From Clostridia bacterium (GTDB lineage: Bacteria > Bacillota > Clostridia > Oscillospirales > CAG-272): a stretch of DNA of 35,829 bases. Position 1 is the stretch's first letter; each line of letters begins with the position of its first letter. Below are positions 3,692-32,645 of this stretch, piece after piece. The notes beneath the pieces are model-generated. The model searched no databases, was not told where the DNA came from, and saw nothing but the letters and a program-made list of their open reading frames with translations. Made by a program: the position numbers and the translations under genes. The stretch covers positions 1-35,829 of the forward strand of contig JAFQOX010000093.1 in NCBI GenBank assembly GCA_017412045.1. The letters run 5' to 3'.

Positions 3692-3731
3692 GTCTAAAAT
3701 TAACTGAAATTCGTTGCATAAGGAGAATGAG

Positions 3732-7857: not shown

Positions 7858-7885
7858 TTTTTGTATAATAACGACCGCAACTATC

Positions 7886-7914
7886 TTGATTTTTTATTTT
7901 TGTTATGTTATTAT
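7886..7914 (+). promoter_or_regulatory. Probable promoter of the PP2C-like gene
   Basis: TTGATT (7886-7891), 17 bases, TATTAT (7909-7914) with TGT in front. The surrounding 100 bases are very AT-rich, so neighbouring alternatives exist. An overlapping TGA-TAATAT lies at 7914-7922. Confidence 0.5.
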
Positions 7915-7959: not shown

Positions 7960-9609
7960 ATGAATAGAAAATGGAAAATCTCTCAATATTGCGAAAATCC
8001 GCCGCGATTCGATCTGTCACGCTGTCAGGATGCCTGCGCCTCTTACGAGGACGGCGAGCTTTTCGTCATGGCTCTGTGCGACGGCGCGCCGGCGGCTTCG
8101 CTCTCTCATATCGGCGCCGCTTGTATTGCCGAATTTTCCGCAAAGTATTTTGCGGAGCATTTTGATACCCTTTATGATGCGGAATTTAACGTTGCTTGCG
8201 AAGAATTGATCAAATATCATCAGGCTATGATCAGCAATCTCGCCGAGGTCGCTGCGGAAAAGAAGGACGTCAAGATTCTGATCAACAGAATGATTCAGCT
8301 CAGAGAATTGAATAAATTCTCCTCCACCGTTCAAATCCTTGCCGTAAAAGGTGAAAACGCGATCTATTTCAAGGTTGGCAACGGCAGCGCCGTGGTGGCT
8401 TCCCCGAAGTCCGTTCTGACGCTTTCCGATTCGCTTGTCCGCGATCCCGTCGCATACGTTACGATCCCGAACCCCGTCAATCTGCTCATCAGCTGCGATT
8501 TTCAGCGGTTTACGGTTTCTCCCTCCTGCTATGCGATTGCGCTGGCGACGGATGGCATCGAATTTGACGGCGGATTATTTTTCAACCAGAAGGCAACGCA
8601 TTTTTACGAAAAAGCGCTTGAGGACATTGTTGCCTGCGAGGATGACGTAACGACGGAATTGCAAACGCTTGCCGATTTGTTGCTGTGCGACCATAAAAAT
8701 ACCGAAAAAGACAATATCGGTATTTCCGTTTTGCACAGGGAATGCTTGCCGGAGCCCGTTGTTCCGCCCCAAGAGGCTGACGAAGACGTCAGAATTATGA
8801 TCATGGAAGAGCCTGCCGGGGAAGAGCCCAAGACAGTGATCGTCGAAGAGCCCGCCGGAGAAGAGCCCAAGGCAGTGATCGTCGAAGAGCCCGCTGGGGA
8901 AGAGCCCAAGGAAGAGCCCAAGGCAGAGATCGTCGAAGAGCCCGCCGGGGAAGAGCCTAAGGCAGTGACCGTCGAAGAGCCCGTCAAGGAAGAGCCCAAG
9001 GCAGTGATCGTCGAAGAGCCCGCCGGGGAAGAGCCCAAGGCAGTGATCGTCGAAGAGCCCGCCGGGGAAGAGCCCAAGGCAGTGATCGTCGAAGAGCCCG
9101 TCGGGGAAGAGCCCAAGGCAGTGATCGTCGAAGAGCCCGCCGGGGAAGAGCCCAAGGCAGTGATCGTCGAAGAGCCCGCCGGGGAAGAGCCCGGGGCAGA
9201 GATCGCAGATGATGCGAACGAACCCGAATTTGAAATCGTGGACGACGAAGAACCCGAGAGCGAAATCGCAGACGATGCAGAAGAGCCCGAATTCGAAATC
9301 GTGGACGACGAAGAACCTTCCTCCGAGATCACCGAAGGATCCGCTGACGAAAAATCCGAAATCGAAACGACAGGCGGTGAGGAAGCTTCTGACGCTGAAG
9401 CCGCGAACGACGAAGAAGAGCCCGAATTCGAGATCGTAGACGACGAAGAAGAACCCGAATTTGAGATCGTAGACGATGACGGTGAACCGGAATTTGAGAT
9501 CGTGGACGATGACGAAGAAGTGCCGGATCAGATCCATACGGACGATGACAAGCAAGCGATTTCCAAAACGATCCTGAAATTTTTCAACGTATCCATTAAG
9601 AAAAAATAA
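7960..9609 (+). CDS. PP2C-like (PPM family) protein phosphatase with acidic repeat tail
   Basis: Residues 1-262 have the order of PPM phosphatase motifs: LCDG with D41 (for VxDG), KVGNGSAVV (for GDSRxY), LATDG with D198 (for SDG) and KDNIGISVL with D251 (for DNxT). The three core metal-binding aspartates are present, so a Ser/Thr phosphatase activity is plausible although the motifs are divergent. Residues about 282-415 are ten copies of a 13-residue unit EEPAGEEPKAVIV. After that come five EPEFEIVDD-type acidic units, and the last 14 residues are basic. There is no signal peptide or membrane span. No partner kinase was found in the window. The gene converges on the coiled-coil operon, and I infer that it acts with that operon and the Hsp70s. 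Confidence 0.75.
   Translation: MNRKWKISQYCENPPRFDLSRCQDACASYEDGELFVMALCDGAPAASLSHIGAACIAEFSAKYFAEHFDTLYDAEFNVACEELIKYHQAMISNLAEVAAEKKDVKILINRMIQLRELNKFSSTVQILAVKGENAIYFKVGNGSAVVASPKSVLTLSDSLVRDPVAYVTIPNPVNLLISCDFQRFTVSPSCYAIALATDGIEFDGGLFFNQKATHFYEKALEDIVACEDDVTTELQTLADLLLCDHKNTEKDNIGISVLHRECLPEPVVPPQEADEDVRIMIMEEPAGEEPKTVIVEEPAGEEPKAVIVEEPAGEEPKEEPKAEIVEEPAGEEPKAVTVEEPVKEEPKAVIVEEPAGEEPKAVIVEEPAGEEPKAVIVEEPVGEEPKAVIVEEPAGEEPKAVIVEEPAGEEPGAEIADDANEPEFEIVDDEEPESEIADDAEEPEFEIVDDEEPSSEITEGSADEKSEIETTGGEEASDAEAANDEEEPEFEIVDDEEEPEFEIVDDDGEPEFEIVDDDEEVPDQIHTDDDKQAISKTILKFFNVSIKKK
8806..9207 (+). repeat. 39-bp coding minisatellite in the phosphatase gene
   Basis: About ten in-frame copies of a 39-base unit encoding EEP(A/V)(G/K)EEPKA(V/E)IV. 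Several adjacent copies are identical at the DNA level. The third copy carries an extra EEPK insertion. Such DNA can gain or lose copies by slippage without breaking the frame. Confidence 0.95.
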
Positions 9610-9611
9610 AT

Positions 9612-9668
9612 AAAAATCCCCCTCATATCATCCCGAACGTTTCAGGGACGGTATGGAGGGGATTTTTT
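9612..9668. terminator. Bidirectional terminator between convergent genes
   Basis: AAAAATCCCCCTCATA and TATGGAGGGGATTTTTTT form a long, slightly imperfect stem. It has T-runs on both strands and lies between the phosphatase stop (9609) and the stop of the leftward coiled-coil operon (9675). Confidence 0.8.
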
Positions 9669-9674
9669 TCGGAA

Positions 9675-10871
9675 TCAATCCTGAGGCATAAGGTCTTTGA
9701 AAAGATCCTCGGTTTTGCTGTTCAGATCCTCCTCGAGATTCTTGAAGAGGCTTGCCATGAGGTATTCCGTTTGTTTTCCGGTTCTGGTTCTGTATTCATC
9801 GGCTTGCTTGTGTGCGTGCGATATAATATCCTTCGCTTCCTCGTTGGCTTGATCGATCATTGTTTTTGCCTCGGCTGTGGCGTCGCTGATGATCCTGTTT
9901 GCCCGGACGGCGTTTTCATTCATCGTTGCTTCTGCTTGCTTCCGGATCGTGTCTGCCTCCGCGTTGGCGCGGTTCAAAGCATCCCGAACGATCACGCCGG
10001 CTTCAATATCCGCTTCTTTGCGGATCGCTGCCGCCTCTTGTTCCGCAGCCTTTTTGATATCGTCCGCAGATGCGACTGCATTCGCTATGATCTCCTCGGA
10101 TCTTTCTTTGACGATTTTATCGGCTTGCATTTTGGCATCCGATATGATCGCTTCCGCCGCGGCAAGAGCGTTCTTTTTGATCTGCTCTGCTTCGGCTTGA
10201 GCCTCCCGTCTCATATTTTCGGCTTCCTCGTGAGCGTTTTTGGAAATCCGCTGGGCTTGATGATTGGCATCGTGGACGATCTCTACGGATTCCGCCTTTG
10301 CCGCTTGGAGCTTTTGATCAGCTTGGCTTTGGGCATTCTCGAGGAGCATTTGCGCCTTGTCCTTTGCCCGCATGAGAAGCTCGTTTGCCTTATTTATGTA
10401 CTGATCCGCGAGCTTCCGATAGTAGTTCATGATGGCTTCGCCGCCGGCGGCGCTGTCTTCTGCCGATGCGGCGCGAACGGGAACGGCGGATCTCGACTTT
10501 TCCCATGCGAAGATGGCAATATCCGGAACCTCCGCATCCCTCGGGAGTGGATCGTGTATGGTTCGGTCATTCCATTTCATATTGGGAAAATGAGGCAGAT
10601 GATCGGCGGCTGACTTTTTTCCGTCTTTATACGTATCGTACGCTTCTATCAAGAGGGAAATTTCAAAATAAGACAAGGTATGATTCTGAAATTTCTTCTG
10701 CATTTCACGAACGAAGGAGCAGTTTCTTTGCGTGGTATATTCGTCAACGATCAGCTTGCAAACGTCCCGATACAGGAACTGCGCGGCGCTTGCAAATTGC
10801 TCTTTGTTGTACGATTCGGGCGTAGCCCTTGGCTTTTTTGCCATATAATACTGAAATGAGTTGATAGTCAT
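9675..10871 (-). CDS. Hendecad coiled-coil protein with unknown N-terminal domain (paralogue 3)
   Basis: A 398-residue protein, last of the leftward operon. Residues about 25-130 form a helical domain shared with the two upstream paralogues. Recognisable shared points are FLYRDVCKLIVDEY, FVREMQKKFQN, a YFEISLLIEAY segment, a W(N/S)D(R/K)xxH pair and an IAIFxWE end. From about 145 to 375 the chain is almost pure alpha-helix with an 11-residue (hendecad) repeat rich in Ala, Glu, Gln and Lys, predicting a long rod. It lacks the C-terminal GrpE-like part of paralogue 1. The start ATG has AAAGGA about 10 bases upstream. There is no membrane span or signal peptide. I do not recognise the N-terminal domain. 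It is the most diverged of the three copies. Confidence 0.8.
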   Translation of the reverse strand: MTINSFQYYMAKKPRATPESYNKEQFASAAQFLYRDVCKLIVDEYTTQRNCSFVREMQKKFQNHTLSYFEISLLIEAYDTYKDGKKSAADHLPHFPNMKWNDRTIHDPLPRDAEVPDIAIFAWEKSRSAVPVRAASAEDSAAGGEAIMNYYRKLADQYINKANELLMRAKDKAQMLLENAQSQADQKLQAAKAESVEIVHDANHQAQRISKNAHEEAENMRREAQAEAEQIKKNALAAAEAIISDAKMQADKIVKERSEEIIANAVASADDIKKAAEQEAAAIRKEADIEAGVIVRDALNRANAEADTIRKQAEATMNENAVRANRIISDATAEAKTMIDQANEEAKDIISHAHKQADEYRTRTGKQTEYLMASLFKNLEEDLNSKTEDLFKDLMPQD

Positions 10872-10976
10872 GATAAGAGAATCCTTTCTGGTTTGATCGT
10901 TTGATCCGCGCGTCCATTCCTGAAAACTGACGCCAAAATTTCGCGTGGCGCGGAATGGATCGGCGGTCGGTTGCCG

Positions 10977-12386
10977 TTATTTCGTGCGAATATTTTTGAA
11001 TTTGCTTTCCAGATCTGCTCTGAGCGCCTTTCGCGCTTGATCCAGAGCCTTTTGGGCGTTGTCCTTGGATTGGTTGACGATCTCGTCTGCCTGCGCGTGT
11101 GATTCCGACAAGATATGCTCAGCCTGCGCCTTGGCATCTGCCACAATTGCATCGGCTGTTGATCGCATGGTTTCTTCTGCCTGTACTCTGGCTGCCTCAA
11201 TGATCTTTTCGGCTTCTTCACGAGCCTCTGCGCAAGCTTGTTCTTTGATCGCCGTTGCCTCTGCACGCGCTTGCTCGCTGATCTCTGCCGCCTCCCGGCG
11301 CGCGGTTTCCGTGATCTCCTGCGCGTTTTGCTTTGCTTGATTTACAATATCCTCGGCAGACGTTTGGGATTCTCTGAGAATTTCATCGAGAAGCACTTTG
11401 GCAGCCTCCAGAATTTCGTCCGCCATCGTTCTGCCCTCTTCTTCCTCAGGGCAATCTGTCGATTCGGTCTGCTTCGTTTCGGCGGCTTCTTTGTTTGCCT
11501 GATTGATAATGTGAGACGCAGAGGCGCGGGCTTCCTCTATGATCCTCATTGCTTCTGCATTGGCTTCTTTTTGGGTATTTTCGGCTTGTTCGTGCGCATA
11601 GGAGCGGATGGTCTCCGCATCTGCGCTTGCCTCTTTGATCGTGTTTTCGGCTTGCAATCTGGCGTTTTCAGCGTCCCGGTTTGCCTGCGCTCGGATTTCT
11701 GCGGCATCCTGATTTGCGCGAGATCTTCTCTCGTTTGCCGCTTGGGTTGCTGCCGCGCTCAGCTCTTGGGCAGCCTGTTTTGCTTGCGATTGGATCTTTT
11801 CTGCTTCCTGCGTTGCAGTACCCACGATCTGCTCTGCCGTTTTTTGCGCATCATCTACGATCTGGGCTGCATTCTTTCTTGCTCTTGCATCAATGTCGAG
11901 GGACGCTGTTATAGCCTCTTTTCGCGCTTGATCTACGATGATTGCGGCAAGGTCTCTTGCTTTTTCTTGCGCCTTCGCTATATCTACGAAACTGTCAAGG
12001 TTTTCTCTTTCAAAATTGAAAATAGCGAATGACGGCAACTTTTCTCTGTGAGAATGGGGCGTATGCAGATTTTTATCGGACCAGCGTGCGCCGGATGTAA
12101 ACGGTACGTTGTCGGAAAGATCGCTCTTTTTTTCTTTCGTAAGTATCCGAAATGCTTCTCCCAGGATGGCTATCTCAAAATTAGTCAAGCTGGTACCCGT
12201 TTTTTTCGAGTTCTGGATTTTGTTCATCATTTCCCTGACGAAAGGACTGGTTTGGTCCTTGCGGTATTCATCCACGATTTTATCGCATATTTCGTAAAAT
12301 AATTTTTGATTTTGAGCGATTTGATGTCTTTGGAATCCTTTATTAACGGCTCCCTTGTTTAAATCATAATGCTCCCACGAATTCAA
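10977..12386 (-). CDS. Hendecad coiled-coil protein with unknown N-terminal domain (paralogue 2)
   Basis: A 469-residue protein. Residues about 5-140 carry the shared N-terminal domain (SWEHYDLNKG, YEICDKIVDEY, a TNFEIAILGEAF segment, PFTSGARWSDKNLH). From about 150 to the end it is hendecad coiled coil, for example ADEIVNQSKDN-AQKALDQARKA. A TTG start at 12386 is chosen: homology with paralogue 1 begins here and AGGAAAGG lies about 11 bases upstream. A longer reading from 12476 would run through the terminator of the previous gene. The first 380 bases and part of the coiled coil are nearly identical in DNA to paralogue 1, showing recent duplication. Its role is unknown; a scaffold working with the neighbouring Hsp70s is inferred from context. 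Confidence 0.8.
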   Translation of the reverse strand: MNSWEHYDLNKGAVNKGFQRHQIAQNQKLFYEICDKIVDEYRKDQTSPFVREMMNKIQNSKKTGTSLTNFEIAILGEAFRILTKEKKSDLSDNVPFTSGARWSDKNLHTPHSHREKLPSFAIFNFERENLDSFVDIAKAQEKARDLAAIIVDQARKEAITASLDIDARARKNAAQIVDDAQKTAEQIVGTATQEAEKIQSQAKQAAQELSAAATQAANERRSRANQDAAEIRAQANRDAENARLQAENTIKEASADAETIRSYAHEQAENTQKEANAEAMRIIEEARASASHIINQANKEAAETKQTESTDCPEEEEGRTMADEILEAAKVLLDEILRESQTSAEDIVNQAKQNAQEITETARREAAEISEQARAEATAIKEQACAEAREEAEKIIEAARVQAEETMRSTADAIVADAKAQAEHILSESHAQADEIVNQSKDNAQKALDQARKALRADLESKFKNIRTK

Positions 12387-12397
12387 AATCTGATCAT
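12383..12397 (-). promoter_or_regulatory. Four-codon leader ORF overlapping the TTG start of paralogue 2
   Basis: ATG ATC AGA TTT TGA (peptide MIRF) starts directly after GGAAAGG, and its TGA overlaps the TTG start codon of the gene. The same arrangement precedes paralogue 1. It may be chance conserved by duplication, or a reinitiation device. Confidence 0.35.
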
Positions 12398-12427
12398 CCT
12401 TTCCTATTAGATTATTGATAGAAAAAC

Positions 12428-12464
12428 TGTAAAAGCCCCCTCTGTCGTATGGATAGAGGGGGCT
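12428..12464 (-). terminator. Terminator after paralogue 1 (leftward)
   Basis: On the minus strand AGCCCCCTCT and AGAGGGGGCT form a perfect 10-bp stem (12455-12464 with 12434-12443), followed by TTTT and a second T-run. It lies between two genes of the same direction, so it may reduce rather than stop expression of paralogues 2 and 3. Confidence 0.75.
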
Positions 12465-12491
12465 GAAAGAAATCACCGTACGTTTGCTTTG

Positions 12492-14417
12492 TTATTTCTG
12501 GGTATTTTTGGCAATGATCTCGATATTTTCGGGCGTATCTGCGATCACGACGTCAGCATATGCCAAAACTTCTTCGCCGTAAAGCGTATCTCGTTTGATG
12601 CCGGGCGTTGTGAAAGATGCAATTTCACAACCTGCGTATTTCGTGCAGACGCTATAGGACGTTTCATCCTCGGCTCTATGGTAACGGGAATCGTATTTCT
12701 CACCTGCTGCCGGTTTGATGACGTCAAATCCAAGCGCTGTGATGGTTGCTTCAAACTGACGCAAAAATACCTGAATCTGCTCGTTCAATTTGTTTAGCTT
12801 CTTAACCATGTAGTTGCCAAGCGTTTCGTCTATCCGATTTTCTTCCGTCGTGTTGTAGATCGCTTCCATGATGGATTTGATCAGCTCATCGGCAGTTCTT
12901 GTCAAAAACAGGTAGTTGCTCAGATAAGTATCGATGCAGATTTTCTCTTTTCTCGGATAAAGAGCGAATCGCCATGCTTCCAGATCCTTGCACATTTTTT
13001 GCTTTTCACTTTCTAATTCTTCCATCGCATGCTTGAAGATCTGAACCATATGAGCCTGATATTGGCTTGACGCGGCTTCCATTGCTCTTTGTGCGTCGCC
13101 GTTATTTTCAAACGTGTTCATGATTTCGTGAGACATAGCGAAGCACTTTTGATTATACTTCAAAAGCTCATCGGAGACCACGTTGGAAACGATTTCTCTC
13201 GCATCGCTGCGTTGCTCTGCTATGGTGTTCTTGATGAGTGCAGAGGTCTCTGTTTCCGCATAATTGATAATGTTCCTTGCCGATGCTTGCGCTTCTTCTA
13301 CGATCTCCCTTGCCTCTGCATTGGCTTCATTTTTTGTCTTTTCTGCCTCTGCATTAGCTTCGTTTCTGGTCTTTTCGGCTTGTTCCTGTGCATTGGAGCG
13401 AATGATGTCCGCCTCTGCGCTTGCCTCTTTGATCATGTTGTCGACTTGTATTCTGGCATCGGCGATGAGCTTTTCGGCTTCTTCCTTTGCGACCGCGGTT
13501 GCTTTTTCGATGATGTCTTTTTTCTCATTGTCTGCGTTTATTTTTGCTTGCGATCTGATGTATTCAGCGTCCCGGTTTGCCTGCTCTCGGATTTCTGCGG
13601 CATCCTGATTTGCGCGAGATCTTCTCTCGTTTGCCGCTTGGGTTGCCGCCGCGCTCAGCTCTTGGATCTCCTGCTTTGCTTGCGATTGGATCTTTTCGGC
13701 TTCCTGCGTTGCAGTACCCACGATCTGCTCTGCCGTTTTTTGCGCATCATCTACGATCTTGGCAGCTGTCGCCTCTGCATTCTTTCTTGCTCTTGCATCC
13801 ATGTTGAGGGACTCTGTGATAGCCTCTTTTCGCGCTTGATCTACGATAATTGCGGCAAGTTCTCTTGCTTTTTCTTGCGCCTTTGCTATAATCTCATTTT
13901 CCGGTTGCGGTGTGTCTGCGGCATTCGTCGCGTCACGGGAATCCTGCCCCCGCTTATCTGCCGCTTGTTTTGCAAACTTATCGTCCTTCGATTGGGTTCG
14001 CTTCGTTACTTGTACGTAACTGTCAAGGTTTTCTCTTTCAAAATTGAAAATAGCGAATGGCGGCAACTTTTCTTTGTGAGAATGGGGCGTATGCAGATTT
14101 TTATCGGACCAGCGTGCGCCGTATGCAAACGGTACGTTGTCCGAAATATCGCTCTTTTGTTCTTTCGTAAGCATCTGATATGCTTCTCCAAGGATCGCTA
14201 TTTCAAAATTAGTCAAGCTGGTGCCCGTTTTTTTCGAGTTCTGGATTTTGTTCATCATTGCCCTGACGAAGGGGCTGGCTTGGTCCTTGCGGTATTCATC
14301 CACAATTTTATCGCATATTTCGTAAAATAATTTTTGCGTTTGGACTATTTGCTGTCTTTGGAATCCTTTATTAACGGCACCCTTGTTTAAATCATAATGC
14401 TCCCATGAATTATTCAA
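12492..14417 (-). CDS. Coiled-coil protein with C-terminal GrpE-like domain (paralogue 1)
   Basis: A 641-residue protein directly after the Hsp70 gene. Residues about 5-150 are the shared N-terminal domain and about 185-440 a hendecad coiled coil. About 440-555 is further helix, and 560-628 resembles the GrpE exchange factor end: long helix, then ALGFDVIKPAAGEKYDSRYHRA, which matches the GrpE pattern FGVEVI...DPNVHQA, then an I-A-S-F...GEEVLAYADVVIA strand end matching the GrpE finish (GYTLNGRTIRAAMVTVA). GrpE releases ADP from Hsp70, so this protein is the likely partner of the Hsp70s here. It uses a TTG start with AAAGG about 11 bases upstream. The rod plus exchange-factor fusion is unusual. 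The assignment is by motif only. Confidence 0.78.
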   Translation of the reverse strand: MNNSWEHYDLNKGAVNKGFQRQQIVQTQKLFYEICDKIVDEYRKDQASPFVRAMMNKIQNSKKTGTSLTNFEIAILGEAYQMLTKEQKSDISDNVPFAYGARWSDKNLHTPHSHKEKLPPFAIFNFERENLDSYVQVTKRTQSKDDKFAKQAADKRGQDSRDATNAADTPQPENEIIAKAQEKARELAAIIVDQARKEAITESLNMDARARKNAEATAAKIVDDAQKTAEQIVGTATQEAEKIQSQAKQEIQELSAAATQAANERRSRANQDAAEIREQANRDAEYIRSQAKINADNEKKDIIEKATAVAKEEAEKLIADARIQVDNMIKEASAEADIIRSNAQEQAEKTRNEANAEAEKTKNEANAEAREIVEEAQASARNIINYAETETSALIKNTIAEQRSDAREIVSNVVSDELLKYNQKCFAMSHEIMNTFENNGDAQRAMEAASSQYQAHMVQIFKHAMEELESEKQKMCKDLEAWRFALYPRKEKICIDTYLSNYLFLTRTADELIKSIMEAIYNTTEENRIDETLGNYMVKKLNKLNEQIQVFLRQFEATITALGFDVIKPAAGEKYDSRYHRAEDETSYSVCTKYAGCEIASFTTPGIKRDTLYGEEVLAYADVVIADTPENIEIIAKNTQK

Positions 14418-14428
14418 AATCTGATCAT
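14414..14428 (-). promoter_or_regulatory. Four-codon leader ORF overlapping the TTG start of paralogue 1
   Basis: The same MIRF-stop mini-ORF as before paralogue 2, with its TGA overlapping the TTG start at 14417. Confidence 0.35.
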
Positions 14429-14479
14429 CCTTTCCATAATAAAGATTGTCGTTAAAGAAATCTGATAAATATATTGGGG

Positions 14480-14506
14480 AAAGGCTGCAAGTGACTTGCA
14501 GCCTTT
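14480..14506. other. Strong hairpin in the Hsp70A/paralogue 1 gap
   Basis: AAAGGCTGCAAG and CTTGCAGCCTTT form a perfect 12-bp stem with a 3-base loop. Read leftward, as the operon runs, it lacks a good T-tail and could be an attenuator or RNA processing site. The T-rich tail is on the other strand, where no gene needs it. Confidence 0.6.
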
Positions 14507-14577
14507 CTTTTGTTTTGAAATACGCCGCTTCAGGAGTTTATCCCGCTCCATACGGGAGTGTCCCAAATCGGATTTTG

Positions 14578-16143
14578 TTATTGTTCGCTTTTCGGTTTCG
14601 TGTTATAGACGGCTGTAACGTGAACTGCCGGATTTTTTTTGCTGAACGCTTCGACCGTGATAGAACCGTTTTTATCGGCAACGATTCTTGCTTGCGTTTT
14701 TGTGCCTTGCGGAACCGGCTTTCCATGGTCCACGATGACCTCCATAATCTCCCTGTAGTTATCCAGATTATAGTTATCTATATTATCCGTATTTCCAACG
14801 ATAGATTGGTAAACGGTCAAGCGGGATGCTTGCTGTCCCTCGTATCTGGTCGTTGAGGTGCGCCAAGACGAGTTGATCGATTTGCGCGTAAGCTTCGCAT
14901 TCTTTTTCAAATAAGTATCAATGAAATACTTTCCTTCCGAATCCAACAAACGAATGCCAATATCAAAATCGAGTACTTGAACTACAGTTGGACCATCTTT
15001 ACCATTGATGAGGTCTTTTTCCTCTGCGCCGAAACGCGCCGCGCCGCAAGCGATTGCCATCGTGGGCTTGTGTTTCCTGATCTTGCCCGCATATTCGGGG
15101 AAATATTTTTTCAGCGCTGCTTCTACCATGGGCATTTGAGAGGCGCCGCCGGTCAGAACGATATATTCGGGCTTATTATATTGGGGGTGGTTGAGCATTG
15201 CTTTCGTACGATCGATGGTCTTCAGCAAAAGATGCTCCGCCGCGGCTTCAAATTCTTCTCTCGTGACGGAAATGTCGAGTGTTTCGCCATAGTGTGTAAC
15301 CATGGGCGAAGTTGATTCGAAATGTGACAATTCAATTTTGACTTGTTCACATTCTGCCTTCAGCTTCTCCTCTTCTTTTGCGGTCAGAGAATCACCCTTC
15401 AGCAGCTCGCTGATTTTTTGCTTCAGAAGTTCAAACAAAGCGTTATCAAACTCAACGCCGCCAACGCGCTCCAAGCCGTCATTCGTTATAATTTCGTAAT
15501 AAAATTTGTCTTTACCGAATCCCTTGCCATTAGGATACGCACTGACGAGAGACAGGTCGAAGGTGCCGCCGCCGAGGTCGTAAACCAGGACGGTCGTGTC
15601 TTTATCTGTTTTGTTCTGGACCGCAAGATAATCGAGAGCCGCCGCCGCAGGCTCTGCGATCGTGCCGATGACCTCCACTTGTCTGCCGTCCTCCAGCGTT
15701 GCCCGCTTGGCGAGTTCAACCAACTGCCTGCGATCATCGACCCCATAGGAAACAGGGTAAGAGAGTGCGATCTGATTCGTCGTTTCTCCGAAATTGTTCA
15801 GCAGCTGCGTATTGGCTTCGCGTACGCAGAACTGGATCACCTCCGTGATCGCATCGTTGATCTCGATATCCTTGCCATCGAGCGTTTTGACTCCGTTCAA
15901 TTGACGCTTCAGATATCTCAACCGGTTTTCCACGGGTGTGGCTCTCATGGAAACCGCCTCATAGCCGACGTAGGTTTCGTCTTTGCCATGCTGGTTGGTG
16001 TAAAAATATACGCTCGGAATACCGTATGGATACTCGGGCGGAACCAATCGATGGGGCTCTCCTCCGAGCTTGGTGGTGTCATCCATTCCCTGGATCACGT
16101 AAGGGACCGAATTATAGTTTCCGAAGTCTAATCCGATAACCAT
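14578..16143 (-). CDS. Hsp70-family chaperone ATPase (Hsp70A), lid-less
   Basis: A 521-residue DnaK relative. The ATPase domain (1-395) has GLDFGNYNS (phosphate 1, replacing GIDLGTTNS), K79 in RYLKR, E164 in the AEPAAAAL motif, the DLGGGTFD loop with D189, T194 and D196, and the adenosine motif LTGGASQMPMVE. All catalytic residues known from DnaK are in place. Residues about 405-510 look like one substrate-binding beta module (DFDIGIRLLD...VYQSI...NGSITVEAF). The helical lid and a DnaK-type tail are absent. The ATG at 16143 follows AAAGGAGA; a longer in-frame extension has no ribosome site. It is first in the leftward operon with the GrpE-like and coiled-coil genes. It is not the housekeeping dnaK: there is no dnaJ and no CIRCE site nearby. 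Confidence 0.92.
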   Translation of the reverse strand: MVIGLDFGNYNSVPYVIQGMDDTTKLGGEPHRLVPPEYPYGIPSVYFYTNQHGKDETYVGYEAVSMRATPVENRLRYLKRQLNGVKTLDGKDIEINDAITEVIQFCVREANTQLLNNFGETTNQIALSYPVSYGVDDRRQLVELAKRATLEDGRQVEVIGTIAEPAAAALDYLAVQNKTDKDTTVLVYDLGGGTFDLSLVSAYPNGKGFGKDKFYYEIITNDGLERVGGVEFDNALFELLKQKISELLKGDSLTAKEEEKLKAECEQVKIELSHFESTSPMVTHYGETLDISVTREEFEAAAEHLLLKTIDRTKAMLNHPQYNKPEYIVLTGGASQMPMVEAALKKYFPEYAGKIRKHKPTMAIACGAARFGAEEKDLINGKDGPTVVQVLDFDIGIRLLDSEGKYFIDTYLKKNAKLTRKSINSSWRTSTTRYEGQQASRLTVYQSIVGNTDNIDNYNLDNYREIMEVIVDHGKPVPQGTKTQARIVADKNGSITVEAFSKKNPAVHVTAVYNTKPKSEQ

Positions 16144-16195
16144 GATATATATCTCCTTTATTATTGATAAAATATAAACTGTTATATACCCTATC

Positions 16196-16224
16196 ATTCT
16201 ATCATATCGTTTATAAAAAATCAA
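16196..16224 (-). promoter_or_regulatory. Leftward promoter of the Hsp70A operon
   Basis: On the minus strand TTGATT (16224-16219), 17 bases, TAGAAT (16201-16196) with TGA before it, an extended -10. ATGATAG occurs twice in direct repeat across the -10. No heat-shock CIRCE repeat is present. Confidence 0.65.
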
Positions 16225-16273
16225 GATATGATCAAAAAAATTCTCTAAAAAGCGTAAAATATAGCAAAATATA

Positions 16274-16302
16274 TTGAAAAAACACGAAAATTGTGGTACA
16301 CT
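16274..16302 (+). promoter_or_regulatory. Rightward promoter of the TIR-LRR gene
   Basis: TTGAAA (16274-16279), 17 bases, TACACT (16297-16302) with TGG before it. It is back-to-back with the Hsp70A promoter inside the 203-base divergent region, which holds no gene. Confidence 0.65.
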
Positions 16303-16346
16303 GTCAAAGTAATATTAAATCATATGCAAAAAGGAGGAATGATCCC

Positions 16347-19300
16347 ATGGGAAGCTTCGAAAAAACGAATGCCGCCCGTCAATGTCCGTGCTGCGGAAAC
16401 ACAACGTCCTTTATCAAGCGCAGCGAAGGGTATCTGTGCGAGCATTGCGGCTTTTTGGTAGAGCCTCTTCCGGACCAAACGAGCCTTCAGGAGCAGGACA
16501 ATGAGATCCACGCCCGCATCCTACAGGGACACGAATATTTACATAACTACGATTTCGAACGCGCCAGAAATACGTTTCAGCGGATCATGCAGGACGCGCC
16601 TGCCAATAAGCACGCGTACTGGGGATTTTTGCTCGCGAAATTCGGCGTCGTTTACGTCAAGGGATTTTTCAGCGATGAGGCGGAGCCGATCTACTGTTTT
16701 CCGGATTACGACCATCTCGGCAAAACCACGCTGAAAAGCACGAAGGAATTTGCCAAAATCCTCGAATTGGTCGGCGAGGATACCAAGCTGCAAAACCTGT
16801 ATTTCGAGCAAGCGAAAAAAATCGACCAGGCGATCATCAATTTCAGAAAGAGCGTTGACAGGGCGGAGGACGACGTATTTCTCTGCGTGAAGATCAGCCG
16901 CGCGACGGAAGCCGATCCGGAGGCCGCGGGGCATACGGAGGATTCCGCTATCGCGGAACAGATCGAGCGGGAGCTGACGGATCGCGGTCTCAAGGTCTTC
17001 TACAGCCTGCACACGCTGACGAATCAGGTGGACTCCGACGATCAGATCTGGAGCCATCTGGTCAAAAGTAAGAAAATGATCCTGATCGGAACCCGTGAGG
17101 ATTATCTGGAAAGCGCCTGGGTCAAGAGCGAATGGATGCGCTGGCTGTATCTGAACCGTCAGGAGCAGCTGTACGTTTACGTTCCGAAGCGCGACGTCGA
17201 ATCGCCCAAAAGCATTTTGCCCTACGAGCTCCGCACGAAGCAGATCTATACGCTGGATTCCTACGAAAAGCTCCTGCGTGACGTTTCGGATATGTCGAAC
17301 GCCGCCGCGCCCGCGCCGGACGATATGAACGGCAGGATCGTCTTCATCAACGGCAATGAGGAAATCATTCCGTACGGCACGGAGGAGATTTCCCCTTACG
17401 CATACAGCGGAAGGACGGACGTTTTCCGCGTCATTCTCCCCGAGGGCATCAAGCGGATCTGCAACGAGGCTTTTGCGGGCTGTGATAAAATGGTCGAGGT
17501 CAAATTGCCCGATTCGCTCCAGCTGATCGGCGAAGAAGCATTCCGCGGCTGCGATGTCCTGAAGGAGATCGATATTCCTTACCGTACGCAGACCATCGGC
17601 GTACAAGCCTTTCTGAACTGCCGCTCTCTCGAGAGCATCACCATCCCCGCCAATACGGTCAAAATCGGCTACGGCGCGTTCGGCTGCTGCGATCTTCTGA
17701 AGGAAATGTCCGTCGATAAAAGAAATAAAAATTATTACGGCAACGGTAATTGCATCGTGAGCAAAAACGGCGTGCTGGTCGTGGGCTGTGCGTCCACGAG
17801 GATTCCCGACGACGACAGCGTCGTGACGATCGGTCAGAACGCCTTCTGCGGCTGCGCGGAGCTGTTTGAGATCGATCTGCCCGACAGCGTTCAGACGATC
17901 GAGGACGGCGCCTTTCTGAACTGTCGGAATCTGGAGCGTATTTCGCTCCCGTCCAGCATAACCGAGATCGGAACGGATGCCTTCCGCGGCTGTAACGCGC
18001 TGAAAACCGTGAATTACGATAGCTCCGAGTGGGTATGGAAGGGCATCGACTGCGGCAAAGGAAACGAATGGCTGATGCAGGCTTACCGGAATACGCAGAA
18101 AAAACAGAAAAAGCCGGAAGCGGCAGAACAGACCGATGACCGGGAATACCTTGAAAACGTCGAATCCGTCGGCAGGGAATCCTTTGTCGATGACGATTCG
18201 GAATATGAATATACGGAAGAAACCAAAACGACAGAAACGGAAATTATGGAAAAGCAGGAGGAATCTACCATGATCGTGATGAAATCAAAAGCGCTTGAAA
18301 ATCTGGAGGCAGAGCTGGCGGTAGTCAGAAGACGCCTCGAGGACTCTCAGCGTATGCGTAAGGAGCTGGAGGAAAGCCTGGAGGACGTCAAACAGAAGCA
18401 GGCGGAATTGGCTCTCACCGCAGAACAGTGCGAATACCGCCAGACCGAATGTCTCAACCGCGCCAACCAGGCGGCAAGCGAGAAAATCGTGGCGGAGAAA
18501 AACGAAGCCAGTGCAAAGGAAAACAAAGCGAGAGCCATTCGTGAAATGGAACTGAAGGCGCAGGTGGAGGCCGAAGCCCGCGCGGCAGAGCTTGCAGCCC
18601 GCGCGAGAGCGGAAGCGGCTGCCCGTGAAAAGGAAAAGGCATCTCTGCGCGTGCAGGAAGCCGATGCCCGCGTCAACAGCGCGAAGGAAGAAATCAACCA
18701 GAAGGCGCGCGAGGAGTACGAAGCCAGAGAGCAGGCGCTTGCCGCCGAGCAGGAAAAAGCCGCTGCGTTGGAGGAATGCAAGCGTCTGGATGACGACGTC
18801 TCCTATAACCAGGATTATCTGGACCTCAACGCCGCTATGGAAAAGAAAACGCAAGCGAAGATCGACGATCTGCTTGCCCGCATCCGCCGTGAAATGGCAA
18901 AGGACAACCCGTCGTCCGAAGATGAGCAAACGACGACCACGACGGTCACAACGACGACGACCACGACGACGACCACCGGATCCGGTGCAAAGACTACCAC
19001 CACGACCACCACCAAGCCCGGAACGACAACCGTCAAACCCAAAACGACCGTTTCCATCCCGGAAACGTCACCCGCACAAACGGAAACACCTGCGGTTCCC
19101 GTCGGCGCCGGCTATATTCTTTACACGGACGGCAGAAAGCAGATTTTGAAAAACGGTATGACGTCCATTGCAAACTACGCTTATCAGAACAATGATACGA
19201 TCGCCATCGTCGTTCTTCCGAAAACACTGAAGCGCATCGGTGAATACGCATTTGCCGGATGCACCAATCTGACCACCGTGACCATGTTTGACAGCGTCAA

Positions 19301-19604
19301 CGAAATCGGAAAATACGCGTTTGACAAATGCACGAAGCTCTCCATCGTTCAGCTGACGCAGAATATCGCTGAAATCGCTCGCTGCACGTTCCAGAAATGC
19401 GAAAGCCTGAAAAAAATCGACATTCCCTACGGTGTAAAGAAGATCGACGTCTCCGCCTTTAATATGTGCAAGAATCTGGAAACCGTCACCCTTCCCGAAA
19501 CGCTGACGTACATCGGTGAAAGAGCGTTCTTCGGCTGTCTCGTCGGTACGGATATCGTACCCGGTAAAAACGTTTTTGTCGGAAGAGAGGCATTCGGCTC
19601 CTGA
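16347..19604 (+). CDS. Zinc-ribbon, TIR, coiled-coil and BspA-type LRR protein
   Basis: A 1085-residue multidomain protein. A zinc ribbon has C13, C16, C31 and C34. A TPR-like helical part spans 50-160. A TIR domain spans about 176-312, opening DDVFLCVKIS and closing with ESAWVKSEW, where E262 matches the catalytic glutamate of NAD-cleaving TIR domains. LRR_5 repeats run 345-562 (pattern IPxxVxxIGxxAFxxC), a coiled coil 648-855, a threonine-rich linker 860-905 and a second LRR_5 set 920-1085. There is no signal peptide or membrane span, so it should be cytoplasmic. The ATG at 16347 is set by AAGGAGG nine bases upstream. Hsp70B follows on the same strand. An NADase or signalling role is inferred from the TIR; the LRRs may be sensors. 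Confidence 0.88.
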   Translation: MGSFEKTNAARQCPCCGNTTSFIKRSEGYLCEHCGFLVEPLPDQTSLQEQDNEIHARILQGHEYLHNYDFERARNTFQRIMQDAPANKHAYWGFLLAKFGVVYVKGFFSDEAEPIYCFPDYDHLGKTTLKSTKEFAKILELVGEDTKLQNLYFEQAKKIDQAIINFRKSVDRAEDDVFLCVKISRATEADPEAAGHTEDSAIAEQIERELTDRGLKVFYSLHTLTNQVDSDDQIWSHLVKSKKMILIGTREDYLESAWVKSEWMRWLYLNRQEQLYVYVPKRDVESPKSILPYELRTKQIYTLDSYEKLLRDVSDMSNAAAPAPDDMNGRIVFINGNEEIIPYGTEEISPYAYSGRTDVFRVILPEGIKRICNEAFAGCDKMVEVKLPDSLQLIGEEAFRGCDVLKEIDIPYRTQTIGVQAFLNCRSLESITIPANTVKIGYGAFGCCDLLKEMSVDKRNKNYYGNGNCIVSKNGVLVVGCASTRIPDDDSVVTIGQNAFCGCAELFEIDLPDSVQTIEDGAFLNCRNLERISLPSSITEIGTDAFRGCNALKTVNYDSSEWVWKGIDCGKGNEWLMQAYRNTQKKQKKPEAAEQTDDREYLENVESVGRESFVDDDSEYEYTEETKTTETEIMEKQEESTMIVMKSKALENLEAELAVVRRRLEDSQRMRKELEESLEDVKQKQAELALTAEQCEYRQTECLNRANQAASEKIVAEKNEASAKENKARAIREMELKAQVEAEARAAELAARARAEAAAREKEKASLRVQEADARVNSAKEEINQKAREEYEAREQALAAEQEKAAALEECKRLDDDVSYNQDYLDLNAAMEKKTQAKIDDLLARIRREMAKDNPSSEDEQTTTTTVTTTTTTTTTTGSGAKTTTTTTTKPGTTTVKPKTTVSIPETSPAQTETPAVPVGAGYILYTDGRKQILKNGMTSIANYAYQNNDTIAIVVLPKTLKRIGEYAFAGCTNLTTVTMFDSVNEIGKYAFDKCTKLSIVQLTQNIAEIARCTFQKCESLKKIDIPYGVKKIDVSAFNMCKNLETVTLPETLTYIGERAFFGCLVGTDIVPGKNVFVGREAFGS

Positions 19605-19643
19605 TTCGCCATAGCTCATAAACAATCGCATCATACGTAAAAC

Positions 19644-19679
19644 TTGAATGGGACAGAGTCCGTGATTCTGTCCCATCAA
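19644..19679 (+). other. Intercistronic hairpin between the TIR-LRR gene and Hsp70B
   Basis: ATGGGACAGA (19648-19657) pairs with TCTGTCCCAT (19667-19676). The tail is only weakly T-rich, so it may be a partial terminator or RNA stabiliser that lets some transcripts continue into Hsp70B. Confidence 0.55.
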
Positions 19680-19708
19680 TTTATATCATAAAGAAGGAAC
19701 CATAAAAA

Positions 19709-21700
19709 ATGAAAGATCAAAATATCATCATTGGCTTGGATTTCGGCAACTATTGCACCGTCCTCAGCTGTGTCGATCAATCTTATTCCGTCGACAAAGC
19801 AACCGATATGATGCGCCTGCTTATGCCCCACGAGCAGGCGAACGGAATTCCGAGCGTATATTTTTATTCCCAAAAGAAGGGCTCGCTGTACGGCAGAGAC
19901 GCCGTTTCGATGTATGCGACGCCCGCCGCCAACCGACTGCGGTATTTAAAGCGCAGACTGGGCGAAACCGCGACCGTCGACGGCAAGGAGATTTTGATCG
20001 ACGAGGCGATCACGGATATTATCCAACACTGCGTACGGCTCGCCAACGAGCAATTGATGCTCGAATTCGGCAAAACGACGAATCTGGTCACCCTCGCGTA
20101 TCCCGCCTCGTACAAGCCCGAGCAACTGCAAAAGCTGATCACGCTTGCCGAAAAAGCCACGCTTCCGGACGGAACGCATATCCGTGTTTGCAGTACGATT
20201 GTTGCGCCCGCCGCGGCGGCGATCGATTATCTGGAGGCGCACGGCAGACCCGGAACGGAAACGACCGTTCTGGCTTACGACCTCGGCGGCGGATCCTTCG
20301 GCTTATCGCTCGTGAAAATACATCCCAACGGATGCCGCGACGAATCCGGCGCGCTGTATTACTACGACATCATTGACCAAGCAGGTCTCGCCAATATCGG
20401 CGGCATCGAATTTGACAGGGTCATGTACGAGATTTTGCTTGAGAAGGCGGACCAAGTGCTGAACGGCGCCAAGCTTTCGGATTATGAATTGAATATGTTG
20501 CGGGACAAAGAAGCCGAGCAGGCAAAAATCGAATTGTCGAAGTTCAACGTCACGTATCCGTCGGTCCTTCACAACGACGAGAATCTGAATATCGAAGTCA
20601 CCCGGGCGGAATTTGAAGAACGCGCCAGACCTCTTCTGAGACGCACGGTCGCGCTTACGCGCAATATGCTGATGGATCATTATGAAAACGCGCCGGATTT
20701 CATCATCATCACGGGCGGCTCCTCCGAAATGCCCATGGTTGAAAAAAATCTGAAGGCGGCGTTCCCCGAATACGCGGGCAGAATCATCCTGCACCGCCCC
20801 AGAAGAGCGATCTCCTTCGGCGCGGCGCGCTTTGGCGCATCACAGCAATGCCGACAGGCAAGCCGATCCGATGCACCCTCCGAGCCCGCAAAGCCCGCGC
20901 AGAATACGGCGAACGAAAGCCTCTCTCTGGTTCAGCCAAACCTCAAGTTTGATATCGGCATCCGTGTATCGGATTATCAAAAGAATCGACGCTTCATCGA
21001 GACGCTGGCGCCCGCAGGCTCCCCGCTTCCCTATGAATCTCCCTATTATTTTTCGGAAACGTCCGTCGATCAACAGCGTTTTTCCGTCTGGTCCGTTTAC
21101 AGATCCATCGTGGCACGCCCCGACCCCTATAAAATCGACGAGCATTACACGAAAATCATGGACGCTACCGTTGACCACGGCGTTCCCCTGCCCAAGGGCA
21201 CGGAAACAAAATCGAGAATGCTGATCGATACGGACGGCCGTATCAAAATCGAATCAACCGTTTGCAAGCCGGCAGATGACGGTATGGGAGCGGATCACGC
21301 CCGCTCACACAAGCGGATCGCTTTCGACATCGGCGTGCGCCTGCTGAATCCGGACAGAAAGGAGCGCTTCATCGAAACTCTTGCGCCCGCAGGAACCACG
21401 CTCCCTTATGAATCGCCCTATCACGTTTTCCCGACCGTGGCTGATCATCAGAGAACGTCGTTTTTCCCGATTTTCGAAGCAAAAACCGAAAATCCCGATC
21501 CGTATAAACCGGACGAAGATTATTCGGAAATCCTTCAGGTGACGGTCGACCATGGAAAAGCGGTCCCCAAAGGAACCCAAACGAAATCCAAAATGATCAT
21601 CAACGAAGACGGCTTTATTAAAATCGAGTCGTTCAACGCGCAGGGAGAAAAGCTCGTCTCCCATTGTCTGATGAGATTGCAGCATCTGGAATCCGATTGA
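19709..21700 (+). CDS. Divergent Hsp70 (Hsp70B) with altered catalytic residues and two substrate-binding modules
   Basis: A 663-residue protein. The ATPase domain (1-395) is close to that of Hsp70A (GLDFGNYCT, RYLKRR with K81, ITGGSSEMPMVE). The residue at the DnaK E171 position is A166 (IVAPAAAA), and the DLGGGTFD loop reads DLGGGSFG (S196 and G198 for T and D). ATP hydrolysis is therefore expected to be weak or lost, while binding may remain. After a linker two tandem beta modules follow, about 410-515 and 535-645. Each has FDIGxRxxx, FIETLAPAG, DYxEIxxxTVDHG and GxIKIES, similar to the single module in Hsp70A. There is no lid helix. AAGGA lies about 10 bases before the ATG. It lies downstream of the TIR-LRR gene, probably co-transcribed in part. 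Confidence 0.88.
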   Translation: MKDQNIIIGLDFGNYCTVLSCVDQSYSVDKATDMMRLLMPHEQANGIPSVYFYSQKKGSLYGRDAVSMYATPAANRLRYLKRRLGETATVDGKEILIDEAITDIIQHCVRLANEQLMLEFGKTTNLVTLAYPASYKPEQLQKLITLAEKATLPDGTHIRVCSTIVAPAAAAIDYLEAHGRPGTETTVLAYDLGGGSFGLSLVKIHPNGCRDESGALYYYDIIDQAGLANIGGIEFDRVMYEILLEKADQVLNGAKLSDYELNMLRDKEAEQAKIELSKFNVTYPSVLHNDENLNIEVTRAEFEERARPLLRRTVALTRNMLMDHYENAPDFIIITGGSSEMPMVEKNLKAAFPEYAGRIILHRPRRAISFGAARFGASQQCRQASRSDAPSEPAKPAQNTANESLSLVQPNLKFDIGIRVSDYQKNRRFIETLAPAGSPLPYESPYYFSETSVDQQRFSVWSVYRSIVARPDPYKIDEHYTKIMDATVDHGVPLPKGTETKSRMLIDTDGRIKIESTVCKPADDGMGADHARSHKRIAFDIGVRLLNPDRKERFIETLAPAGTTLPYESPYHVFPTVADHQRTSFFPIFEAKTENPDPYKPDEDYSEILQVTVDHGKAVPKGTQTKSKMIINEDGFIKIESFNAQGEKLVSHCLMRLQHLESD

Positions 21701-21710
21701 TTTTTGAACG

Positions 21711-21746
21711 AAAAAAATCCCCCGAAAATGATTCGGGGGTTTTTTA
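21711..21746. terminator. Bidirectional terminator between Hsp70B and the PPP phosphatase
   Basis: CCCCCGAA (21719-21726) pairs with TTCGGGGG (21732-21739), with TTTTTT on the right and AAAAAAA on the left. It can serve both convergent genes. Confidence 0.85.
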
Positions 21747-21747: not shown

Positions 21748-21851
21748 ACCATAGGAAATTGCGCAAAATGGTCCTCGCCGTTTCGCATTGTTTCAATACA
21801 GGCTGAACTGCGGTAGGCGAGCAACTTCCTGCGGGCGTTGCCCGCTTTTTT
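21748..21851 (+). repeat. Dispersed repeat, copy A
   Basis: The unit starts ACCATAGGAAATTGCGCAAAA, has a CTCGCC...GGCGAG inverted pair and ends in the hairpin GCGGGC-GTT-GCCCGC followed by a T-run. A partial second hairpin arm (GGCGTTGCCCGC) follows just downstream. Four more copies occur near 26.6 kb and 30.1 kb. Confidence 0.85.
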
Positions 21852-21878
21852 ATGCAGCTTCCGGCTGGCGTTGCCCGC

Positions 21879-26037: not shown

Positions 26038-26083
26038 GAATATACCATCCTAAAAATTGTATTCATGAAAGGAAATGATAACC

Positions 26084-32387: not shown

Positions 32388-32645
32388 ATGTACGGAACGG
32401 AAAATCTGATTATATCCTCTCCCATCATGTGGATATGCTTCGCCGTCACGGCGATTCTCGGCTTTCTGGAATACAAGCTCCCGCTCAAATGGCTCTGGAT
32501 CACGCTGACCGTCGTATCGCAGGCGGCGGCTGTCGTCGCTCTGCTCTTTGCAAACGCGGCGCTCTCCGAATTTTTGCTCTATATCCTCGTCGTTCTGTTT
32601 ATCAGACTTTGCTATATTATGCTTGAAAGGAGAAAGACCGCATGA
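32388..32645 (+). CDS. Small membrane protein of the acetylation cassette
   Basis: An 85-residue protein with three predicted membrane spans, about residues 10-28, 33-53 and 57-78, and a basic C-terminal tail (ERRKTA). The ATG at 32388 has AAAGGA 9 bases upstream. Its stop overlaps the start of the MBOAT gene by ATGA, so the two are translated together. I do not recognise a family. Position suggests a helper subunit of the acyltransferase, perhaps analogous to small partners in D-alanylation or acetylation systems. Confidence 0.75.
   Translation: MYGTENLIISSPIMWICFAVTAILGFLEYKLPLKWLWITLTVVSQAAAVVALLFANAALSEFLLYILVVLFIRLCYIMLERRKTA

Follow-up and report, generated by a model that had tools for sequence, protein, structure and literature searches.

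The closest printed relatives of the locus described here belong to the HSP70/GrpE theme of the GAP1-N2 double-GTPase conflict systems (PMC7159879). In the excerpts of that paper on which we draw throughout, HSP70 and GrpE genes, joined by a second HSP70 in a subset, lie together in a mobile neighbourhood, chiefly of actinobacteria and firmicutes, and are predicted to act in conflict (Kaur et al., 2020). The excerpts also name TIR among the effectors of systems related to GAP1-N2 and offer chaperone-thresholded conflict systems as a precedent. The locus itself is a block of seven genes at positions 7,960 to 21,700 of a 35,829-nucleotide contig of a Clostridia bacterium (Oscillospirales, CAG-272; assembly GCA_017412045.1, contig JAFQOX010000093.1), and this whole stretch is referred to as the window. 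The block encodes two Hsp70 proteins (Hsp70A and Hsp70B), three coiled-coil rods, one of which carries a GrpE-like head, a TIR-LRR protein and a PP2C-type phosphatase. We tentatively read it as a mobile-type Hsp70/GrpE module that has recruited the TIR-LRR protein as a chaperone-gated effector, a possible reading that we place slightly on the doubtful side of even. The anatomy and ancestry of the parts can be established by sequence comparison; their joint function is something we infer from one genome.

Compared with the GAP1-N2 systems, the window shares the HSP70/GrpE theme, with a GrpE similarity that is evident at profile level only. It differs in the second HSP70, which in the published systems, as excerpted, lacks a peptide-binding domain, whereas Hsp70B carries two β-type substrate-binding domains (SBD-β). 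Moreover, the defining families are unlisted: Pfam gives no DO-GTPase match for the seven block genes and the neighbouring AlwI-type nuclease gene (E ≤ 0.1) or for 13 flanking open reading frames (E ≤ 0.01), and neither GAP1 nor FNIII-repeat families for the scanned window genes, these window negatives excluding the open reading frames at 26075-26503, 32388-32645, 32642-34099 and 34115-35572. GAP1 and FNIII repeats are likewise unlisted for the genes of two related loci treated below (L019 and L028), and the DO-GTPase family for the scanned genes of the L019 operon. Because these families are unlisted and the second Hsp70 differs, full membership was rejected and the block is not filed as a GAP1-N2 system.

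Other described systems resemble the block in single respects. The phage sensing of bNACHT25, which goes with host DnaJ/DnaK, depends on DnaJ, so that an immune-type sensor is activated in a chaperone-dependent manner; it differs in combining host DnaJ with a NACHT protein, and no dedicated Hsp70 or GrpE genes are described in the excerpt of that report (PMC12169576). In CoCoNuT systems, again as excerpted, Hsp70-like domains are fused to or encoded with McrBC parts (PMC11090510), which Pfam does not list in the window. Thoeris was rejected, since the ThsB match of the TIR-LRR protein is weak (1.9e-4) and ThsA was not found by PADLOC among the seven block genes, the part of the window that PADLOC covered. 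TerY-P was rejected too: of the triad only PP2C is present, VWA and Ser/Thr kinase families being unlisted in the scanned window genes. No STAND NTPase domain is listed for the TIR-LRR protein (Pfam, E ≤ 0.1), which places it outside the NLR/STAND proteins.

Composition and descent of the block

The window is contig C89 of a 2.57-Mb genome in 158 contigs (87.7% complete). Its block is laid out as follows:

7960..9609, plus strand: PP2C-type phosphatase with an acidic tail from 39-nt repeats (Pfam PP2C_2, 6.8e-17; candidate metal Asp residues; partner of the restriction-modification pair in congeners)
9675..10871, minus strand: rod 1, N-domain and hendecad coil without GrpE head, the older paralogue (sequence comparison)
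10977..12386, minus strand: rod 2, recent rod 3 duplicate without GrpE head (start placed by register with rod 3)
12492..14417, minus strand: rod 3, N-domain, hendecad coil and divergent GrpE-like head, predicted exchange factor of Hsp70A (profiles)
14578..16143, minus strand: Hsp70A, nucleotide-binding domain and one SBD-β, 521 residues (Pfam HSP70, 7.5e-32)
16144..16346, no strand: divergent control region of Hsp70A and TIR-LRR (promoter-like sites)
16347..19604, plus strand: zinc ribbon (ZnR)-TIR-LRR-long helical insert-LRR protein (Pfam TIR_2, 1.9e-7; LRR_5, 1.9e-82)
19709..21700, plus strand: Hsp70B, sister of Hsp70A with altered ATPase site and two tandem SBD-β (Pfam HSP70, 1.2e-25)
20951..21268, plus strand: Hsp70B SBD-β copy 1, residues ~415-520 (sequence comparison)
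21305..21643, plus strand: Hsp70B SBD-β copy 2, residues ~533-645 (sequence comparison)

A reading made earlier from the DNA alone (the original prediction) had proposed one seven-gene block without an unrelated gene inside it, containing a PPM phosphatase, three hendecad paralogues, an active-looking and an altered Hsp70, and two transcription units diverging from a 203-base region. Gene calls, with none between the seven genes, and Pfam confirm the block and the phosphatase, and the length of 203 bases holds exactly provided that Hsp70A begins at 16143 and TIR-LRR at 16347, both of which have good ribosome sites by eye.

Both Hsp70 proteins pass the Pfam HSP70 cut-off of 20.6 bits (Hsp70A 110.7, Hsp70B 90.2) and are 44% identical. 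In a tree of 21 Hsp70 rows they are sisters (support 99/98) inside a ten-row clade, here called group A (99/100), in which many inner forks are open; within the compared set, the pair thus traces to one duplication. The SBD-β is supported by a profile match to the DnaK domain 1dg4 (E 2.8e-4). As the 521 residues of Hsp70A are accounted for by the nucleotide-binding domain and one SBD-β, the length leaves no space for a helical lid. Identity is 54% between the two SBD-β copies of Hsp70B, against 35-38% between these copies and the SBD-β of Hsp70A, and a tandem duplication after the split of A and B is therefore the simplest reading.

The claim of an altered second Hsp70 is borne out by the alignment of the same 21 rows, in addition to the doubled SBD-β. 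Hsp70B is the sole row in which a conserved Glu is replaced by Ala and a conserved Asp by Gly (the row L028_C has Glu at the latter), and it shares with L026_C a change of a conserved Thr to Ser. These positions, which we take to be E171, D201 and T199 of E. coli DnaK, suggest that catalytic residues have been lost and that Hsp70B is possibly without ATP hydrolysis. The active look of Hsp70A holds in part: the Lys, Glu, Thr and Asp of the other ATPase-site loops are kept, but phosphate loop 1 reads GNYN instead of GTTN. As the group-A proteins read GN(Y/F/C) against the GTT of DnaK, a simple contrast between an active Hsp70A and an inactive Hsp70B appears weakened.

For the rods, autocorrelation of hydrophobic residues peaks at lag 11, as expected of the hendecads originally proposed (z 5.8, 8.0 and 7.4 for rods 1 to 3), and all three share an N-terminal domain that is 88% (rod 2) and 34% (rod 1) identical to that of rod 3. 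Rod 2 arose from rod 3 by recent duplication, since their DNA matches at 92-94% over blocks of 300, 226 and 116 nt and a 24-nt leader is identical; from the register with rod 3, its start probably lies near 12386 instead of 12476. The GrpE-like end of rod 3 was recovered by profiles, whereas Pfam is silent at E ≤ 0.1. A profile of seven heads finds the GrpE structure 8gb3 first in the PDB (E 0.006; runner-up a nucleoporin, 0.059) and aligns to the GrpE of locus L028 (hhalign 91.6%, E 8e-7, a single comparison), which itself exceeds the Pfam GrpE cut-off (E 1.7e-6, 28.2 versus 25.8 bits). The N-domain of the rods in turn matches that of GrpE proteins from the Clostridia operon described below (hhalign 83%, E 9e-6, also a single comparison), and the best reading of the window rods is therefore that of GrpE-rod paralogues, two of them headless. 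Rod 3 is accordingly listed as the predicted exchange factor of Hsp70A.

A recurrent chaperone operon and its distribution

A pattern-based scan of a collection of 84,980 species found 10 relatives of Hsp70A among 80 pattern matches. Nine of them are 41-55% identical to the window protein in the N-lobe, the one in L028 26%. Where the loci are long enough, they reveal an operon in the order Hsp70A, Hsp70C (a different Hsp70), GrpE-rod, X1, coiled coil, radical SAM, X4 and AAA+. Hsp70A is followed by Hsp70C in 8/10 loci (L019-L026), with Hsp70C cut by the contig end in L021 and L025, and the GrpE-rod lies 3' of Hsp70C in all six loci that extend so far (L019, L020, L022, L023, L024 and L026). 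Of the ten, six thus have Hsp70A-Hsp70C-GrpE-rod, three are cut short, including L027, which is broken and whose contig stops shortly 3' of Hsp70A, and one, L028, is divergent, with three Hsp70 genes, another gene and GrpE. The radical SAM gene (Fer4_12), the coiled-coil-like X4 and the AAA+ gene follow in 5/5 loci that reach them (L019, L020, L022, L024 and L026; the AAA+ gene is incomplete in the last three). Annotation is by Pfam for L019 and the L020 AAA+ gene, and by blastp for the remaining loci, with gene calls in fetched loci from a simple script. By these comparisons, Hsp70A and the GrpE-rod constitute a recurrent pair. The window shares with the operon Hsp70A and a GrpE-rod with the same N-domain; it differs in lacking Hsp70C, radical SAM, X4 and AAA+, and in having Hsp70B, headless rods and TIR-LRR.

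Further details concern single loci. L024 (142-3831) has two tandem group-A Hsp70 genes and a short truncated third before Hsp70C, so duplication of an Hsp70A-type gene is not unique to the window. Although their genomes are listed as two species, L020 and L021 share 8304 bp at 99.95% identity, and L021 is also the contig found in genome G891, so that these finds are not independent; the near-identity reflects either recent transfer or two very close genomes. A gene for a type IV coupling protein (conjugation) lies upstream in the opposite direction in L020, L021, L023 and L025 (by Pfam in L020, identical in L021, 58-70% in L023 and L025), and a small helix-turn-helix regulator precedes Hsp70A in L023 and L027. 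PADLOC gives domain-level matches only for the eight L019 operon proteins, the best being IetA at 2.2e-10 (AAA+), with pVip at 1.2e-4 (radical SAM gene) and coiled-coil matches besides. Some 43 bases of the L020 AAA+ gene also match a Paenibacillus plasmid, a hit that was discarded because its neighbours are unrelated. The open full-text PMC literature, with subscription papers outside the search, holds no description of the operon or the block that we found.

The part downstream of the chaperones extends to another phylum. A tblastn search of plasmids with the L020 X4 protein returned one record, the mobilizable plasmid pCAL6303.02 of Calothrix sp. PCC 6303 (NC_019728.1, L069), with the order Hsp70, a 1316-aa TPR protein, radical SAM, X4 and AAA+. 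Judged by blastp, the three downstream genes of the operon therefore recur as homologues, in unchanged order and next to an Hsp70 gene, on a plasmid of a cyanobacterium (identity 37-43% for radical SAM, 24-29% for X4, and 30-41% for AAA+, the last over stretches of more than 200 residues). The Calothrix Hsp70 has no blastp match at E ≤ 1e-4 to the Hsp70s of the window or the Clostridia loci, and the TPR protein, for which Pfam lists neither an NB-ARC nor a STAND family, shows a P-loop-like motif by eye. GTPase genes lie near these genes, one stretch giving a weak DO-GTPase2 match below the cut-off (E 1.3e-3); according to the excerpts of PMC7159879, GTPase systems are almost wholly missing from cyanobacteria.

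The makeup of the operon could also be taken to mean that the module builds or dismantles a filament or large complex and has no immune role, with TIR-LRR as a passenger or scaffold subunit. The coiled-coil-like proteins and the AAA+ ATPase among the operon partners, the long hendecad coils of the rods, and the HSP70 and tubulin families that PMC7159879 reports, in the excerpted text, from GTPase systems would all fit. However, TIR, the BspA-type LRR, the restriction-modification neighbours, the patchy distribution and the conjugation neighbours of the relatives suit a conflict system better, and we regard the filament reading as improbable.

Close forms of the rod N-domain occur in 0/58 other relatives and 0/294 other genomes of the order, these searches being valid for close forms only, since they missed the distant GrpE-rods. 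Hsp70A at E ≤ 1e-30 is absent from the 58 relatives, and a full-length Hsp70 profile at E ≤ 1e-45, which may miss distant relatives, finds it in none of 397 other genomes of the phylum. An 11-row N-lobe profile detects it in one of 390 other genomes of the class, namely G891, 198 relatives of which lack the family. The rod-domain scan of the 84,980-species collection, which like that for Hsp70A rests on exact short patterns, yields no relative among 123 pattern matches, and viral contigs searched with the rod N-domain and two Hsp70 N-lobe alignments none either. By tblastn, Hsp70A matches 117 plasmid and 13 phage records, all below 60% identity (25-29% in the best 15 and 8, respectively); rod 3 has no match in plasmids, nor the L020 GrpE-rod in phages. 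With no find in the 58 relatives and ten loci in the collection, the Hsp70A family is rare and patchy.

This distribution already largely refutes a heat-shock or housekeeping chaperone locus, which the Hsp70 and GrpE-like parts might otherwise suggest, and with it the fixed core locus that would have spoken against the original prediction. The source genome's own DnaK and GrpE lie near each other on contig C150, the only place that a PF01025 (GrpE) search of this genome returns, and both window proteins were rejected as canonical DnaK, being far under the TIGR02350 equivalog cut-off of NCBIfam (99 bits for Hsp70A and 76.5 for Hsp70B, against 822.55). A housekeeping role is thus very improbable. 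The same genome has a second Hsp70 neighbourhood (L007; contig C91, 704-11161), encoding a BspA-LRR/DUF6273, a coiled-coil-like, a 382-aa, an Hsp70, a 544-aa and a metallo-beta-lactamase-fold protein. The 382-aa and 544-aa proteins have no assigned family, the former occurs in none of the 58 other relatives, and PADLOC gives domain-level matches only for the two L007 proteins submitted. The idea, gained by eye, that L007 holds a GrpE/Hsp70 relative was dropped, as profile comparison puts the GrpE probability at 0.5%.

The TIR-LRR protein, the phosphatase and the flanks

The TIR-LRR gene sits between the sister genes Hsp70A and Hsp70B. The predicted TIR and LRR parts are found by Pfam (TIR_2 at 32 bits, cut-off 28), while the zinc ribbon is absent from the Pfam listing and visible by eye only. 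Its ZnR-TIR part has matches in 8/58 other relatives and seven more in the own genome, and none in the PDB (phmmer). The best, L051 and L052 of the same-genus genome G002, are 44% and 36% identical over the N-terminal third; TIR_2 is under the cut-off in L051 and unlisted in L052. The Glu of AWVKSEW (position 262 from the ATG at 16347), presumably the TIR catalytic position, is present in the window copy and L051 and replaced by Asp in L052. The G002 proteins share the zinc ribbon, TIR region and BspA LRR, but differ in a hydrophobic 19-residue segment (Kyte-Doolittle 2.05 and 3.33, at most 1.23 in the window copy), in their neighbours (an AAA+ gene, or sugar-kinase and AMP-binding genes) and in lacking a long insert. 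In the window copy, residues 610-854, between two LRR blocks, are free of Gly and Pro over 245 residues and consist to 60% of Ala, Glu, Lys, Gln and Arg, whereas the longest such runs of the two congeners are 44 and 48 residues. The insert resembles a long helical or coiled-coil segment. Elsewhere in the window, the protein at 30372-32315, near the right contig end, has a weak BspA-LRR match just under the Pfam cut-off, and that at 34130-35572 resembles it by blastp.

The restriction-modification pair that had been noted next to the block is confirmed by Pfam, and the phosphatase belongs with it in the first place, because the trio recurs in two congeners that gave no Hsp70A match (E ≤ 1e-30). 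In G005 and G006, methyltransferase, AlwI nuclease and PP2C follow in the same order, at 84, 72-73 and 63% identity to the window. In G005, one additional gene separates nuclease and PP2C and other genes lie on the far side of PP2C; the G006 contig ends within PP2C (genome 84% complete). The window PP2C retains four candidate metal-ligand aspartates, which we take to be the metal ligands, and has no PDB match by phmmer. The congener copies (L049 5382-6179 and L050 9500-10303) have Gly or Ala for the Asp at position 41 and may be pseudophosphatases. The acidic PP2C tail is coded by 39-nt tandem repeats (8742-9290), and in G005, too, PP2C bears a tail of acidic repeats, with a C-terminus similar to that of the window. 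The features flanking the seven genes, and the promoter-like sites, are:

3714..5861, plus strand: D12-class adenine methyltransferase, restriction-modification partner of PP2C (Pfam MethyltransfD12, 1.7e-69; syntenic with the restriction endonuclease and PP2C in L049 and L050)
5872..7857, plus strand: AlwI-type restriction endonuclease (Pfam RE_AlwI, 6.9e-69; 72-73% relatives near PP2C in two congeners)
7882..7914, plus strand: PP2C promoter-like site TTGATT-17-TATTAT in element TATCTTGATTTTTTAT, with an exact copy upstream of Hsp70A
16224-16196, minus strand: Hsp70A promoter-like site TTGATT-17-TAGAAT with the PP2C-type element
16274-16302, plus strand: TIR-LRR promoter-like site TTGAAA-17-TACACT
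21719..21745, plus strand: intrinsic-terminator-like hairpin 3' of Hsp70B

The promoter element connects the phosphatase to the chaperones. The upstream regions of PP2C and Hsp70A share an exact 16-mer, a length reached by 0/2000 pairs in a first-order Markov simulation (maximum 15), and ATCTTGATTTTTT occurs only four times in ten same-genus sequences: upstream of PP2C in three genomes and upstream of Hsp70A in the window. Two further strong hairpins, at 14476-14510 (16 pairs; gap between Hsp70A and rod 3) and 19648-19676 (13 pairs; gap between TIR-LRR and Hsp70B), may set relative expression. On the right, the block is followed by genes for a metallophosphatase, a dihydrodipicolinate synthase-family protein and an aldehyde dehydrogenase. 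Immediately 3' of Hsp70B lies a dispersed repeat of about 103 bp (21750-21853). Of the seven genomes of the genus, six have at least 35-65 matches each and G001 has one; most of the matches listed fall in this stretch. An Rfam search of the window gave no match.

These surroundings give weight to the possibility that the window is an accessory hot spot, in which the restriction-modification/PP2C trio, the Hsp70/GrpE-rod module and TIR-LRR are adjacent yet independent, a reading that we consider plausible though open to real doubt. Relatives of each part are found apart from the others, the block shows two regimes of G+C content at third codon positions (GC3), the dispersed repeat lies at its edge, and synteny breaks at the block end, since other genes stand behind the metallophosphatase in G006 and G003. 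However, independent insertion would not readily explain why TIR-LRR stands between sister Hsp70 genes and diverges from one of them over a gap of 203 bases, why PP2C and Hsp70A share the exact upstream 16-mer, and why the helical insert is missing from the two compared congener copies of TIR-LRR.

A possible chaperone-gated switch

The strongest argument for gating of TIR-LRR by the chaperones is that the products of one Hsp70 duplication flank its gene. On the reading that the module has recruited TIR-LRR as its effector, rods 1 to 3 would co-assemble via their common N-domains and coils into a scaffold, on which Hsp70A would cycle ATP, its exchange factor being rod 3. If Hsp70B does not hydrolyse ATP, it could act passively, as an adaptor or as a trap with two client sites. 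Hsp70s and rods might jointly keep TIR-LRR inactive via its helical insert or its LRR, until unfolded or foreign proteins from phage infection or stress fill the Hsp70 sites and TIR-LRR is released or clustered. The freed TIR domain would then consume NAD or make a nucleotide signal, and PP2C could tune the complex by dephosphorylation.

Several observations weigh against this. The most serious is that the full block is known from one genome, so the TIR-LRR link draws no support from conservation. In none of the ten other Hsp70A loci does a called gene match the window TIR-LRR or PP2C (blastp). L027 has a different TIR gene upstream, with other genes in between. Conversely, TIR-LRR family and PP2C are both present where Hsp70A was not found, as in the eight relatives with the ZnR-TIR family (E ≤ 1e-30). 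GC3 divides the block, with 0.49-0.57 in rods and Hsp70A, 0.59 in the PP2C domain, 0.68 in TIR-LRR and 0.65 in Hsp70B; most flanks have 0.65-0.74. The window yielded no tRNA, and the Pfam lists of its scanned genes name neither an integrase nor a conjugation family. The PADLOC matches of the block are single and weak (PDC-M61B at 7.7e-6 for Hsp70A, and the above ThsB match for TIR-LRR). The ATPase activity of Hsp70A is uncertain because of its unusual phosphate loop 1. So is a coiled coil in the insert, where heptad periodicity is at best weak and varies with the residues scored (lag-7 z 3.0 with one set and 1.8 with another; 1.9 in a separate analysis) and a hendecad signal is missing.

The original prediction of one joint system thus survives in part. 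The recurrent Hsp70A/GrpE-rod pair, Hsp70B as sister of Hsp70A, TIR-LRR inside that sister pair and the 16-nt element common to PP2C and Hsp70A speak for a connection, but the block is not one conserved system: a second genome with the seven-gene set was not found. The independent occurrence that was to count against it is seen for some parts, namely for PP2C with the restriction-modification pair in two congeners and for ZnR-TIR in 8/58 relatives, without Hsp70A being found there.

A more far-reaching idea, which we consider unlikely, is a new class of immune switch in which a dedicated Hsp70/GrpE machine, instead of a sensor-fused NTPase, gates the effector; the window, the Clostridia operon and the Calothrix genes would then be variants of a single mobile platform that crosses phyla and can exchange its sensors. 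In the window variant, the TIR-LRR effector would be under the guard of Hsp70A, the GrpE-rods and Hsp70B, the last as a pseudo-ATPase with a pair of client sites.

Apart from the question of gating, the analysis brings to light a recurrent Hsp70/GrpE/radical-SAM/AAA+ operon in Clostridia. Plant NLRs are under chaperone control. If gating by the chaperones proves true, the block would represent a dedicated bacterial chaperone-gated TIR-LRR alarm of comparable logic, and a case of immunity through the sensing of chaperone load.

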